From: Pseudonocardia ammonioxydans
GTDB taxonomy: Bacteria; Actinomycetota; Actinomycetes; Mycobacteriales; Pseudonocardiaceae
NCBI RefSeq assembly: GCF_900115005.1
Contig: NZ_FOUY01000018.1
Location: 1-64,000, forward strand
DNA: 64,000 nucleotides
Direction of reading: 5' to 3'
Below, piece by piece: positions 59,456-63,860 of this stretch; positions within the stretch are counted from its first letter, which is position 1; each line of letters begins with the position of its first letter. The notes beneath the pieces were generated by a model that searched no databases, was not told where the DNA came from, and worked only from the letters and a program-made list of their open reading frames with translations. A program made the position numbers and the translations under genes.

Positions 59456-60057
59456 CGCCGTCCTCCGGATCGTGGGAGCCCCGGACGCACCTCGGCCACC
59501 GGGGCCGGGTCCGGCCTCGAGCGCCCGGGACGGGGACACCTCCTTCCGCCGGCATGGCAACGGTCATCGGACCGCCGAGCCCGGTGCCGACGACGGTGAC
59601 GTCCCGGCTCGTGCCGTCCCTGCTTCGGGCGCCTGGACACGACGAGTTCCTGCTGGTGGATGAGGCTCATGGGCGTAGGACACGAGCGGGGTCGTGGGCC
59701 GTGACAGTTTCGGTTGGTGATCCGCGTCACGTGTCTCCGTGGAGCGCGCGCTCGTCCGGGCGGGGAGTCGCGCGGGCGTCCGACGGCAGCTCGTCCCGGT
59801 GGGTGGCCGCCGACGGACGCCCCGGCGTCCGTGTCGGGCGGGCTGTGCCCCACGCCGCCCGGTCGGGTGTCCGCTGACAGCCGGACGCCCTGTGCCGGAG
59901 GCGGCGCCGTTTCCGGTGGTGCTCGACACGCGAACAGGACGCAGGCGTGCAGGACGGGCCGAACGTGCGCCGGGGTGCGGCCGACGGTCGGCCTCGTCGC
60001 CGAGTGGCGCTACTTCGTGCTGGCGGTCCTGCATGTGGGCGGGGTAAAATCGAACGT
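59456..60057. other. 602-bp region without a supported gene
   Basis: Frames open here are Arg/Pro-rich or lack ribosome sites and show no familiar motif; the longest (59554-59877, plus strand) has none. The region should hold the promoter of the small membrane protein gene and, at its right end, the -10 box of the DUF222/HNH gene. Base composition is like that of shadow frames elsewhere in the window. It could be a remnant of an insertion next to the HNH gene. Confidence 0.5.
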
Positions 60058-60058
60058 G
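60045..60058 (+). promoter_or_regulatory. HNH gene -10 box with leaderless start
   Basis: TAAAAT (60045-60050) stands out in GC-rich surroundings and lies seven bases before GTG 60058, the best start of the DUF222/HNH protein. No ribosome-site sequence is present between. This supports a leaderless transcript. Confidence 0.6.
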
Positions 60059-61857
60059 TGGTCGATCAACGTGAGCGGGAGCTGGACGAGATCCTGCAGC
60101 GCCCGGTGGTGGTCGAGGATCCGTGCCCGCACGGGACGCCGGCGCATCTGTGTGCGGATCTGTGCCTGTATGACCCGTCGGCGGTGGCCGCGGTGCAGCA
60201 GGGGCGGCCGGTCGGGCACACGCTCGCGTTGGACTGTGAGCTGGCGGGGTCGGCGCCGGGGTTGCTCAGCGATGCGCAGGTCTTCGATGTCGTCGAGGGG
60301 GCGGAGCGGCTGGTGCGGTGGGCCGGGGCGTTGCGGACGCGCATGATCGCCGAGATCGTCGCGCGGCACCCGCGGGGCAGTCGTGCCGCGCCACCGGATG
60401 CCGATCCGCGGGCGGTCACGCAGGTCAGCCGGTGGTTGCCGGATCATCTGGGGATGGTGCTGGGGGTGACCCGCGAGCAGGCGCAGGGGTTGCTGGCCGA
60501 GGCGGCGCGGTTCGGGCAGGTGCTGCCCGCGACCCTGGCCGCGTGGGAGGCCGGGCAGATCGACGAGCGCAAGGCCGGTGCGATCGCGGAGTCCACCGTG
60601 GTCCTCGACGACGAGGCCGCCGCGGCGGTGGAGGCGGTGGTGCTGCCCGGGGCGGCGGAGGCCCATCACCGGCTGTTGCGGGACCGGCTGCGCCGCGCGA
60701 TCGCCAAGGCCGACCCCGAGGGTGCGGCGCGCCGCCACCAGCGTGCGAAGGCGCAGCGGCGGATGTCGATCAATCGTGGGGAGGAGGGGATGGCCTCGCT
60801 GTGGTTGAACGGGACCGCTGAGCAGACCGAGGCGTCGTGGCAGTCGGTGGACCGGTTGGCGCGTGCGCTGGGCGTCGAGGATCCGCGCACGCTGGACCAG
60901 AACCGGCTCGATCTGGCCCACGGGCTGCTGCAGGGCACCCTGTCCGTCACCGACCTGGGCAGCGTGCAGACGGCGGTGGACAGCGTGCTGGCCGCGGCCG
61001 GTGCCGCCGGCAACGGCGGCGCCGGAATGGCGACCAGCTCCCACGGAACCGGCACCGCTACCGGCGCGGCAGCTCCGGGTGCGGCCTCCGATGGGCCGGT
61101 CACGGTCCCCAGTGCGGGCGCCACGGCGGCTGGGTCGGACGGCGCGGCCCCGGTGATCCCGCCGGAGGTGGTGGCGGAGGCGGTGGCCCGTGCGATGCAG
61201 CACAAGCCCGACCCGAACGAGGTGATCGGGCGTAAGCCGCTGATCCACGTCGTGGTCGCGCTGGACACCTTGATGGGCGGTGACCGGCCGGCCAAGCTGG
61301 TCGGGCACGGCCCGATCCCGGCACTGACCGCCCGTGCCCTGGCCGCCGGCGGAGTATGGAAACGACTCGTCACCGACCCTCTGTCAGGCACCCTGCTCGA
61401 TCACGGCCGCACCACCTACAGCCCACCCGACGGACTCGCCGACCACGTCAAGGCCCGTGACGTCGTCTGCCGCGGCGCGCTGTGCAGCAAAACGATCCGC
61501 GAACTCGACCACCACATCCCCTGGGCCGGCGGCGGCGAGACCAACGAGGAGAACCTGTACGGCTTCTGCATGGGCGACCACAAACTCAAGGACGCCCCCG
61601 GCTGGAAGGTCCTCGCCCACCCGGACGGCTCACTGACCTGGATCAGCCCCTGCGGGCGTCGCCGGACCACCCGCCCACACGACTACCGGCCCTTCACCGA
61701 CCCCATGCCCGAACAATCCGACGACGCCGCCGCCGACGAGCCTGACGCCACCGGCACCGGGAGGGCCGACGCCGACGGTGCGACGGGCCCGACCGGCGAC
61801 GGGTCGCAGGACGCCGGCGAGGGCACAGTGCCCGACGACGATCCGCCGCCGTTCTGA
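60058..61857 (+). CDS. DUF222/HNH endonuclease-family protein
   Basis: A 599-residue protein. Residues 60-330 are the DUF222 domain: [39 protein letters not shown] and [14 protein letters not shown] are typical. A Gly/Ala/Thr/Ser linker, residues 320-360, and the [14 protein letters not shown] motif near 420 follow. The HNH core near residue 475 is [20 protein letters not shown] with N in NEENLYGFC and DHKLKD. The tail is acidic and ends PPPF. GTG 60058 is fixed by the leaderless promoter. The family is abundant in actinomycetes and spreads as multicopy genes; function is unproven. The other copy lies at the left end of the window. Confidence 0.92.
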
Positions 61858-61968
61858 CTCGAGCACGCCTGTGCCCGGTCCTGGGGGCCACGTCTCCACC
61901 GGCCCTCCGACGGAGCTCCGGCGGAAAGCGGGATGAATCCGCCTCCCCGTGTCGTTACCCTGATCGTC

Positions 61969-62013
61969 ATGGCACGAGGCATCTGGTCGCAGAAGGTCCG
62001 CACCGCCCGCTGA
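61969..62013 (+). CDS. Putative 14-residue leader peptide of the ABC-F gene
   Basis: ATG 61969 opens a short frame, [14 protein letters not shown], ending at TGA 62013. TACCCT (61956-61961) is seven bases before the ATG, so the mRNA should begin at this codon and be read without a ribosome site. The peptide lies 101 bases before an ABC-F gene. Its last codons and stop overlap one arm of alternative hairpins. Translation-dependent leader peptides upstream of resistance-type ABC-F and whiB7 genes are known; this one is inferred from position and structure only. Confidence 0.6.
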
Positions 62014-62089
62014 CGGCGGCGCCTTCTCCCTTTTCCACAGCGTCCGCCGTTCCGGTTCCCCGCCGGGCGGCCGTTTCCTGCTGCCCGGC
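62003..62089 (+). promoter_or_regulatory. Candidate attenuator with alternative hairpins before ABC-F gene
   Basis: Hairpin 1: CCGCC (62003-62007) with GGCGG (62015-62019), followed by a pyrimidine tract ending TTTT (62022-62034), looks like a terminator. Hairpin 2: ACGGCGG (62013-62019) with CCGCCGT (62044-62050) uses the same right arm and would exclude hairpin 1. A ribosome stalled on the leader peptide would cover the left arm of hairpin 1 and favour hairpin 2. A third stem GCCGGGC / GCCCGGC (62062-62068 / 62083-62089) lies just before the ribosome site. Confidence 0.5.
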
Positions 62090-62114
62090 TCCACTGCGAG
62101 CTGCGGAGCAACCC

Positions 62115-63860
62115 GTGACACTCACCCCGACCCCGAGATCCTCGGCCCACCACACCGCGCCCCCGGACACGCTGTCGCTGCCCACCGCGGCGGGCGAGAG
62201 CGCCCACGTCCGCGCCGACGGCGTCGGCGTCGTCCGCGGAGCCCGGCGCGTCCTCGACGACCTGTCGGTCACCGTGTCCGCGCGGTCGCGGATCGCCGTC
62301 GTCGGCGAGAACGGCCGCGGCAAGACCACCCTGCTGCACGTCCTCGCCGGGCTGCTCACGCCCGACGAGGGCACCGTGCACCGGGCCGGCACGATCGGAC
62401 TGGCCCGCCAGGAGCTGGCCGCCCGCGACGGCGAGACGGTCGGCACCCTCACCGGCGAGGCGCTCGCCGCGTCGCTGACGGCCCTGCAGGCCCTCGACGA
62501 GGCGACCCACGCGCTGGCCCGGGAAGGCGCCGACGACGAGCGGTCCGGCGACACCACTGTGGCCGACCGCTACGGCGCCGCGCTCGAGGCGGCGACCCGG
62601 CTCGACGCCTGGGACGCCGAGCGCCGCGTCGACGTCGCGCTCGACGCACTCGACGCGTGCACCGACCGGGAGCGTCCACTGTCGACGCTCTCGGTGGGCC
62701 AGCGCTACCGGGTGCGGCTGGCCTGCCTGCTCGGCGCGCGGCACGACGTCCTGCTGCTCGACGAGCCGACCAACCATCTCGACGCGGGCGGGCTGGACTT
62801 CCTGACCCGCACGCTGCGGGACCACCCGGGCGGGCTGGCCGTCGTCAGCCACGACCGGGTGCTGCTGCGCGACGTCGCGGACGACTTCCTCGACCTCGAT
62901 CCCACCCGGGACGGGAAGCCGCGGCTCCACGCCGGCGGGTACGACGCCTGGCAGGACGCCCGGCGCCGCGAGCGCGCACGGTGGGAGCGGGAGTTCGCCG
63001 AGCAGCAGGCCGAGCACCGGCGCCTGCAGGACGCCGTCTCCCAGGCGCGCGACCGCCTCTCGACCGGGTGGCGTCCGGACAAGGGGACCGGCAAGCACCA
63101 GCGCCAGTCCCGCGCGCCGGGCGTGGTCCAGGCGTTGCACCGCCGCCAGGACGAGCTCGACGCCCACCGCATCGACGTCCCGCAACCGCCGCCGTCGCTG
63201 CACTGGCCCGACCTGGGCGTCCGCCGGGGCGCGCCGCAGCTGCGCGCGCACGGCGTCGCCGTCGACGCCCGGCTGGCCGGACCGCTCGACCTCACCCTCG
63301 ACGGCGGCGACCGGCTGCTGGTCACCGGCCCGAACGGGGCCGGGAAGTCGACGCTGCTCGCGGTGCTGGCCGGCGCGCTGGCTCCGGACGAGGGACACGT
63401 CCGGACGGCGCGGGGCGCCCGTGTCGTCCGGCTCACCCAGGAGACGGCGGCGCAGGACCCGGCCGACACCGCGGTCGAGGTGTACGCCCGTCACATCGGG
63501 CGCCTGGTGGCGCGCGGGGAGCTGCGCGACGCCGACGTCGTGCCGCTGGGCTCGCTCGGCCTGCTCGACTCCGCCGCGCTGCGCACCCCGGTCGGACGGA
63601 TGTCGCAGGGCCGCCGGCGCCGTCTCGACCTCGCACTGGCCCTGGCCGGGCGGCCGAGCACGGTCCTGCTGGATGAGCCGACGAACCACCTGTCGTCGGC
63701 CCTGGTCGACGAGCTGACCGCAGCGCTGCACGGGACGAGCGCCACGGTCGTCGTGGCGACGCACGACCGGCAGCTGCTGCGGGACCTGGCCGGTTGGCCG
63801 CGGCTCGACCTCGGCGCGCCGCGTGCTCCAGGCGTGCCGGGAGTGCCGGATCTGCCGTGA
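62115..63860 (+). CDS. ABC-F protein, antibiotic-resistance-like
   Basis: A 581-residue ABC-F protein with two ATPase domains and no membrane segment. Domain 1 has [33 protein letters not shown] (a variant signature) and [14 protein letters not shown]. The linker, near residues 270-340, has [20 protein letters not shown] and [14 protein letters not shown]. Domain 2 has [33 protein letters not shown] and [14 protein letters not shown]. This form resembles actinomycete ABC-F factors that protect ribosomes from macrolides, lincosamides or streptogramins. GTG 62115 has CGGAG six bases upstream. The leader peptide and hairpins upstream suggest drug-induced expression. Drug range is unknown. Confidence 0.88.

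Follow-up and report, generated by a model that had tools for sequence, protein, structure and literature searches.

The 64,000-nucleotide stretch of Pseudonocardia ammonioxydans DNA analysed here (the window) carries a 14-codon frame upstream of an ABC-F gene, raising the question of whether, and in response to what, translation of the short frame governs expression of the gene. Our answer is that the element is probably an attenuator that senses macrolides through ribosomes translating a leaderless leader peptide. Comparison of related loci shows its conservation, peptide motif, spacing, alternative pairings, promoter-box enrichment and coupling to ABC-F phylogeny, and from these we infer the transcript start, the stall, the drug class, the termination step and the function of the ABC-F protein. 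The features of the locus are as follows.

61924..61938, + strand: WblC/WhiB7-type promoter element (putative), GAAAGC at 61924-61929, 3 nt, then −35-like ATGAAT at 61933-61938
61956..61961, + strand: −10 element TACCCT, 17 nt 3' of the −35-like hexamer and 7 nt 5' of the leader ATG
61969..62013, + strand: 14-codon leader frame, ATG at 61969 and stop TGA at 62011-62013, read directly
61991..62027, + strand: hairpin 1:2 (predicted OFF form; terminator-like), with a pyrimidine-rich tail to about 62037
62012..62051, + strand: hairpin 2:3 (predicted ON form; antiterminator), from RNAalifold consensus, pair counts and duplex swap
62062..62089, + strand: hairpin 4:5, arms 62062-62071 with 62080-62089; conserved
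62105..62108, + strand: Shine-Dalgarno GGAG of the ABC-F gene, read directly
62115..63860, + strand: ABC-F gene, start GTG at 62115, 581 aa, two ABC domains, putative ribosome-protection type

The placement of TACCCT seven bases before the ATG, reported in a preliminary description, is confirmed by direct reading of 61956-61961 and 61969. On the 5' side of the leader, 59947-61857 holds a 636-aa frame whose C-terminal part looks HNH-endonuclease-like by eye. Pfam ABC_tran matches the 581-aa protein in two stretches, and its ABC-F membership is clear. As to the ribosome-protection features ascribed to it earlier, the best NCBIfam match is a ribosomal protection-like ABC-F at 295 bits, below the cut-off of 380; the second match is the TlrC/CarA/OleB/SrmB family (293 bits, cut-off 800). 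A resistance function is putative. At four other loci (L115, L120, L162, L163; genomes G080, G117), a long open stretch with a repetitive, arginine-/glycine-rich look lies between the leader and the conserved ABC-F domain, so the ABC-F protein there may carry a repetitive N-terminal extension.

Conservation of the leader and its promoter

In the order sample, 56 of 397 genomes have an ABC-F match at E <= 1e-125, and the upstream regions of all 56 were read or scanned by script. The element of the window, class A, precedes the ABC-F gene in 25 of the 56 (with the leader start unclear in L123). The remaining 31 encode proteins 52-60% identical to the window ABC-F, and the scan found no class A element upstream of them. 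In all of these 31 genomes but G391, where none was found, the gene is preceded instead by another kind of short leaderless frame, class B, 6-10 codons long; 27 of these 30 frames have -FL or -YL as their last residues (exceptions L132, L141, L151). In the class sample, 25 of 394 genomes have an ABC-F match, one being the window's own; the other 24 comprise six with class A, 17 with a class B frame, and G391, in which neither frame was found upstream of ABC-F. The same or a near-identical peptide, together with its pairing arms, precedes orthologous ABC-F genes in four genomes of the same genus (G002, G014, G027, G335) and in Streptomyces fungicidicus p1; more distant versions occur in further families of the class. 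The preliminary description had made its case depend on conservation of peptide and arms in relatives; the peptide motif and both alternative pairings are kept across several families of Actinomycetes.

A maximum-likelihood tree was built from 66 proteins (32 class A, 28 class B, the latter only some of that class, and six other ABC-type proteins from the window's genome). Class A forms one clade (97/94) and class B another (96/86), and leader type is seen to track ABC-F phylogeny. The class B leaders of the sister clade, such as MHLYFL, VMQQLLFL and MGFGYGVFYL, are reminiscent of MsrDL (MYLIFM); their loci are L013-L019, L130-L135, L137-L147, L149-L161, L169-L177, L179-L184 and L186. The counts leave out L123 (same ABC-F clade and RNA element, start unclear) and L178 (same leader as L030); L233 is omitted from the motif and swap lists, L177 (no full frame) from the tree, and class B loci beyond 37 from the promoter alignment. 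A protein search of contigs returned at least 80 loci, mostly distant ABC proteins; the upstream regions of 13 were inspected and only L030 (Nesterenkonia) was used. Searching by a degenerate peptide pattern was uninformative by count, since eight of 297 genomes matched, against 13 hits for a reversed control pattern; the matches are informative by location alone. Five of those eight matches lie before ABC-F, L021 looked like a coding region, and L020 and L022 were left uninspected.

The promoter region is likewise shared. The −10 box precedes the leader start by 7 nt in 29, 6 nt in seven and 8 nt in one of 37 class A leaders, and by 6-7 nt in all 37 class B leaders, a regularity to be read with the caveat that candidate frames were partly found by such spacing. 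In four relatives (L125-L128) the box is missing its first T. The promoter has no −35 consensus. Relative to −10, an A-rich peak at −31 to −29 reaches 50-58% in 36 distinct class A upstream regions and 70-76% in 37 class B regions, with other positions mostly below 20%; AAA falls within a 5-nt window at −33 in 12 of 36 and 21 of 37 regions, respectively. The WblC consensus described for Streptomyces coelicolor is GAAAWY, 3 bp, TKGMNN, 16-19 bp, TANNNT, and most promoters with it are reported to start 7 or 8 bp after −10 (PMC7157823). With such a start, the transcript would begin on or next to the leader ATG. The A-rich peak probably marks the position of the WblC box, with a spacing that agrees with the consensus, and WhiB7 control is putative. 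The window's copy (GAAAGC, ATGAAT) is off consensus at one box base and at the first base of the −35; L255 of the same genome is a WhiB-family protein whose C-terminal region has RGRPR.

Arrest motif of the leader peptide

The window leader carries K9-V10-(R11), with codon 10 at 61996-61998. Among 37 class A leaders before ABC-F orthologues, which encode 32 distinct peptides, [K/R]-x-[R/W] lies exactly three codons 5' of the stop in 31 of the 32. Thirty-one peptides have K or R at stop-6, and 31 have R (17) or W (14) at stop-4; between these positions lies L in 13, P in 13, V in five and R in one. The 31 motif-bearing peptides have R or W as the A-site residue and V, L or P as the P-site residue; the exception, MVRLGPVFWVRIRLR, found in two genomes, has R-I-R one codon nearer the stop. 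Inverse toeprinting is reported to yield the erythromycin-dependent pause motifs +X(+), XP(X), +X(W) and XP(W), with the A-site residue bracketed (PMC6238534), and K-V-(R), K-L-(W), K-P-(W), R-L-(R), R-P-(W) and R-P-(R) of the class A leaders are all members of these published classes. The +X+ motif is that of ErmDL, whose arrest by telithromycin is described as requiring +X+ and as relieved by Trp in the A site, erythromycin being more tolerant (PMC8298421). The W-type class A leaders are therefore predicted to answer cladinose macrolides only.

Arg or Trp codons at the critical place might also point to a leader that senses general translation stress or a shortage of Arg or Trp, not macrolides; for WblC itself, ribosome-mediated attenuation in response to many drugs and to amino-acid starvation has been described (PMC12421871). 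However, Arg and Trp interchange after a K/R that 31 of 32 peptides retain, and the same layout precedes macrolide-resistance Erm genes. Starvation attenuators usually employ runs of one codon, and the pattern seen here fits the macrolide arrest classes and not one amino acid. We consider sensing of stress or starvation unlikely, and the arrest motif narrows the 'antibiotic' of the preliminary description to macrolides.

A further question is whether the frame matters at all. Its stop-proximal codons overlap a conserved hairpin, and conservation is higher in the RNA segments 3' of the stop than in the codons for the N-terminus, two points that would suit a mere structured 5' region or terminator with an incidental short frame. 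Because of that overlap at the peptide C-terminus, demands of the RNA may account for the final R and for some of the K/R bias. Against an incidental frame, the N-terminus varies in length (the peptides have 12-20 residues) yet starts in frame 6-8 nt after the −10 box. The distance from motif to stop is fixed in the 31, and K/R and R/W are preserved through differing codons (AAG, AGG, CGC; CGC, CGT, TGG). We regard an incidental frame as highly improbable and the peptide as probably the sensing part of a macrolide attenuator.

Alternative pairing around the leader stop codon

Hairpin 1:2 (−15.8 kcal/mol) is formed by leader codons 8-14 together with the bases that follow the stop and has an inner stem CCGCC/GGCGG (62003-62007 with 62015-62019) and an outer stem AGAAGGU/GCCUUCU (61991-61997 with 62021-62027). 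The bases just after the stop can alternatively pair with a downstream CCGCCGUY, giving hairpin 2:3 with a main stem of GACGGCGG (62012-62019) and CCGCCGUU (62044-62051) and a CGC/GCG extension (62020-62022 with 62040-62042). The competing hairpin proposed earlier at 62013-62050, sharing the right arm of the first, is thereby recovered at 62012-62051, with arm swaps favouring both alternatives. The terminator-like hairpin placed at 62003-62034 is present and longer than first drawn, as it gains the outer stem; its supposed T-rich tail, CUUCUCCCUUUUCC, is pyrimidine-rich with no proper U-tract. Downstream lies hairpin 4:5 (GCCGGGCGGC / GCUGCCCGGC), nearly invariant in ABC-F leaders, and a similar hairpin occurs in Erm leaders.

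Single-sequence folding of the leader is unremarkable (z −1.56; 16 of 200 shuffles fold equally well); it stands above chance because of conservation, not thermodynamics alone. When the 1:2 arms were swapped among 12 divergent representatives, an arm's own partner was better by 2.61 kcal/mol (74% of 66 pairs; permutation p 0.0065), and the control, in which the same left arm was set against a non-partner region, gave −0.4 kcal/mol. For 2:3, a duplex swap over 25 leaders gave a permutation p of 0.0003. In 29 leaders 95.0% of cells are paired, against 34.9-56.7% after a slide of 1-3 columns, and both the cells paired and the covariation score lie above all 500 shuffles. Double-sided changes occur in three of 18 pairs, which 89 of 500 shuffles reach, and there are 13 further pair types, which 300 of 500 reach (the same 29 leaders); classical covariation is limited because segments 2 and 3 are nearly invariant.

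The ribosome's leading edge lies about 16 nt from the first base of the P-site codon, as is known from toeprinting. By this rule, a ribosome whose P site is occupied by codon 10, the first base of which is 61996, would cover segment 1 and leave segment 2, from 62012, just free. The comparative evidence supports hairpins 1:2 and 2:3 as mutually exclusive, in a switch that fits the predicted stall position. Even in the absence of a ribosome the full RNA adopts 2:3, and the OFF state must therefore be set by the order of folding.

The terminator step is the weaker part of this model: the hairpin is present, and by consensus the terminator is weak. Scanning 61850-62200 for consensus elements gave no terminator and no sigma-70 promoter, and T-runs are poor in some relatives, L009 and L012 among them. 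The same leader could act mainly by translational attenuation, with the stall freeing the ABC-F Shine-Dalgarno as in ermB/ermC and termination playing a minor part. Alongside the lack of a canonical terminator by consensus scan, the predicted unpaired value of the window's Shine-Dalgarno is 0.29 with a ribosome at codon 10 and 0.02 with 1:2 closed, with similar exposure in L162, L163 and L028, and a mechanism of this kind has been proposed for erm(X) (PMC3350403). However, exposure is greater in the ON than in the OFF state in only 11 of 20 scored leaders (mean 0.24 vs 0.18), with nine of the 29 unscored for want of a GGAG at the expected place. On this ground translational attenuation was set aside as the main mechanism and kept as a rival, possible but clearly less probable than transcriptional control.

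We thus favour transcription attenuation by a stalled ribosome. The WblC/WhiB7-type promoter would place the RNA start on the leader ATG or beside it. In the absence of drug, the 14 codons would be completed and ribosomes would depart, the end of the frame would pair with the segment after the stop as 1:2, and transcription would terminate. An erythromycin-type macrolide lodged in the exit tunnel would stall the ribosome when codon 10 (Val) occupies the P site and Arg11 the A site; the stalled ribosome would cover segment 1 to about 62011, leaving segment 2, from 62012, to pair with segment 3. Once 2:3 had formed, RNA polymerase would read into the ABC-F gene, whose product would protect ribosomes. 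The attenuation architecture recognised in the preliminary description is supported by the peptide motif, the start position, the motif-to-stop spacing and the conservation of both alternative pairings.

Related leaders and known systems

Rfam gave no match in the window at gathering score. A covariance model (R1) was built from 29 ABC-F leaders only, with hits taken at E <= 0.001, and it found 34 of 397 order-sample and 10 of 394 class-sample genomes. Strong order-sample hits (E <= 3.3e-9) fall in 26 genomes, of which 25 are class A, all of them training leaders that R1 recovers by construction, and the last is G628, which lies outside the training set and has a shortened ABC-F frame (395 aa). 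In the class sample, G849, G864, G794 and G825 are independent strong hits; at E <= 0.001 the model misses two of six class A leaders (G931, G954), G931 being weak with E 3.5e-4 in one search.

All 13 weaker hits (E 1.6e-6 to 9.5e-4 per genome) were read. Nine, in as many genomes, precede Erm genes, with four genes checked by HMM and five recognised by eye, two precede MFS efflux proteins closest to Lmr(A) (L231, L239), and two (L233, L236) precede a P-loop-like protein of ~200 aa, that of L236 being without an NCBIfam match. The P-loop-like protein is possibly a new macrolide-responsive gene. The Erm-linked loci L226, L228-L230, L232, L234, L235, L237 and L238 are related to Erm(55), Erm(46) and erm(X) where tested. 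All of the 13 but L229 have a short frame that begins 6-8 nt 3' of a TAnnnT box. [KR]x[RW] is found in 10 of 13 leaders (12 weaker-hit leaders and pAP2) and is absent in L228, L231 and L239; the leaders of L231 and L239 are alanine-rich and end in VTRTHRL and VTRTPR, without the +X(R/W) motif. In the 1:2 arm swap, 13 Erm, MFS and other leaders gave a penalty of 3.44 (91% of 78 pairs), with a control that is not fully neutral because it too carries a penalty (0.52, 68%).

On pAP2 (NC_005206), MLISGTAFLRLRSNR is annotated as 'erythromycin resistance leader peptide' before erm(X) and has the same layout, so in kind the layout is already known from this annotated leader and the window's leader is one member of a wider system. 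Like the class A leaders, the 15-codon erm(X) leader (Trueperella, corynebacteria) starts 7 nt after its TATAAT and carries R-L-R at three codons' distance from the stop; arms for 1:2 and 2:3 surround the stop, and a GCCGGGCGG/GCCCGGC hairpin is present. Unlike the class A leaders, the erm(X) leader controls an Erm methyltransferase, not ABC-F, and its arms are AT-richer (AACCGC/GGCGGTT). For the erm(X) leader of pJA144188, erythromycin-inducible translational attenuation has been suggested (PMC3350403). On the pRErm46 plasmid of Prescottella equi (L241), a single annotated gene lies between a class A ABC-F (63% identity), which has a leader of its own, MYASTGFMKPWSLR, and erm(46), whose leader VGNTNIAVTEFRRF lacks the motif; these two leadered genes, both of resistance type, may answer the same cue.

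Other known leaders are less close. ErmDL, a leader from Firmicutes, is preceded by an ordinary ribosome-binding site. It and other +X+ leaders share K/R-x-R placed for a P-site stall at x, whereas 14 of 32 class A peptides have W in the A site, the change described as relieving telithromycin arrest in ErmDL (PMC8298421). As reported in PMC10314930, msrD is, like our locus in the proposed model, an ABC-F gene under macrolide-induced transcription attenuation through a leader peptide, but MsrDL (MYLIFM) stalls at the stop codon and has a ribosome-binding site and a Rho-independent terminator. Its peptide is unlike class A; class B leaders ending in -YFL before the stop look more alike. ARE-ABCF attenuators of the VmlR, MsrD and LmrC kind differ in their terminator, since by consensus no U-tract terminator lies between leader frame and gene here. 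For the polycysteine leaderless sORFs of mycobacteria we know of no drug arrest motif. They are likewise leaderless regulatory short frames in an actinobacterium but are described as sensing cysteine supply (Canestrari 2020). The Streptomyces ARE5 leaders of lmrC, are5sc (MLV) and tiaA (MVGDDDISG) also place an actinobacterial ABC-F under ribosome-mediated attenuation, but lmrC is reported to respond to LSAP drugs, and the are5sc and tiaA uORFs to have ribosome-binding sites and to stall at the start codon with LSAP drugs, not erythromycin (PMC8546547, PMC12421871). Among the open-licence PMC papers listed in our searches, we recognised no description of this leader or of any leaderless macrolide leader of an ABC-F gene, which is no proof of absence.

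The window's element looks like an erm(X)-style macrolide-induced attenuator, leaderless and driving an ABC-F gene, and would represent the ABC-F branch of the actinobacterial erm(X)-type attenuator; the arrest motif, the switch and the relation between the leader RNA sequences support this kinship. What appears to be new comprises the ABC-F branch and its R/W motif, how widely this branch extends, and an element common to different resistance mechanisms. We give an even chance to a broader proposal, in which one modular sensor (a leaderless [K/R]-x-(R/W) frame, a fixed stall-to-switch distance and a WblC/WhiB7-type promoter) would be common to actinobacterial ABC-F, Erm and Lmr(A)-like efflux genes, with the A-site residue tuned by lineage such that R-type leaders would answer ketolides too and W-type leaders only cladinose macrolides. 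The natural leader variants, those with Trp included, match the list of erythromycin arrest motifs obtained in vitro and keep a fixed stall-to-switch distance. The set offers ready-made predicted drug sensors for testing the rules of context-specific macrolide arrest, and it predicts which uncharacterised actinobacterial ABC-F genes would respond to macrolides.
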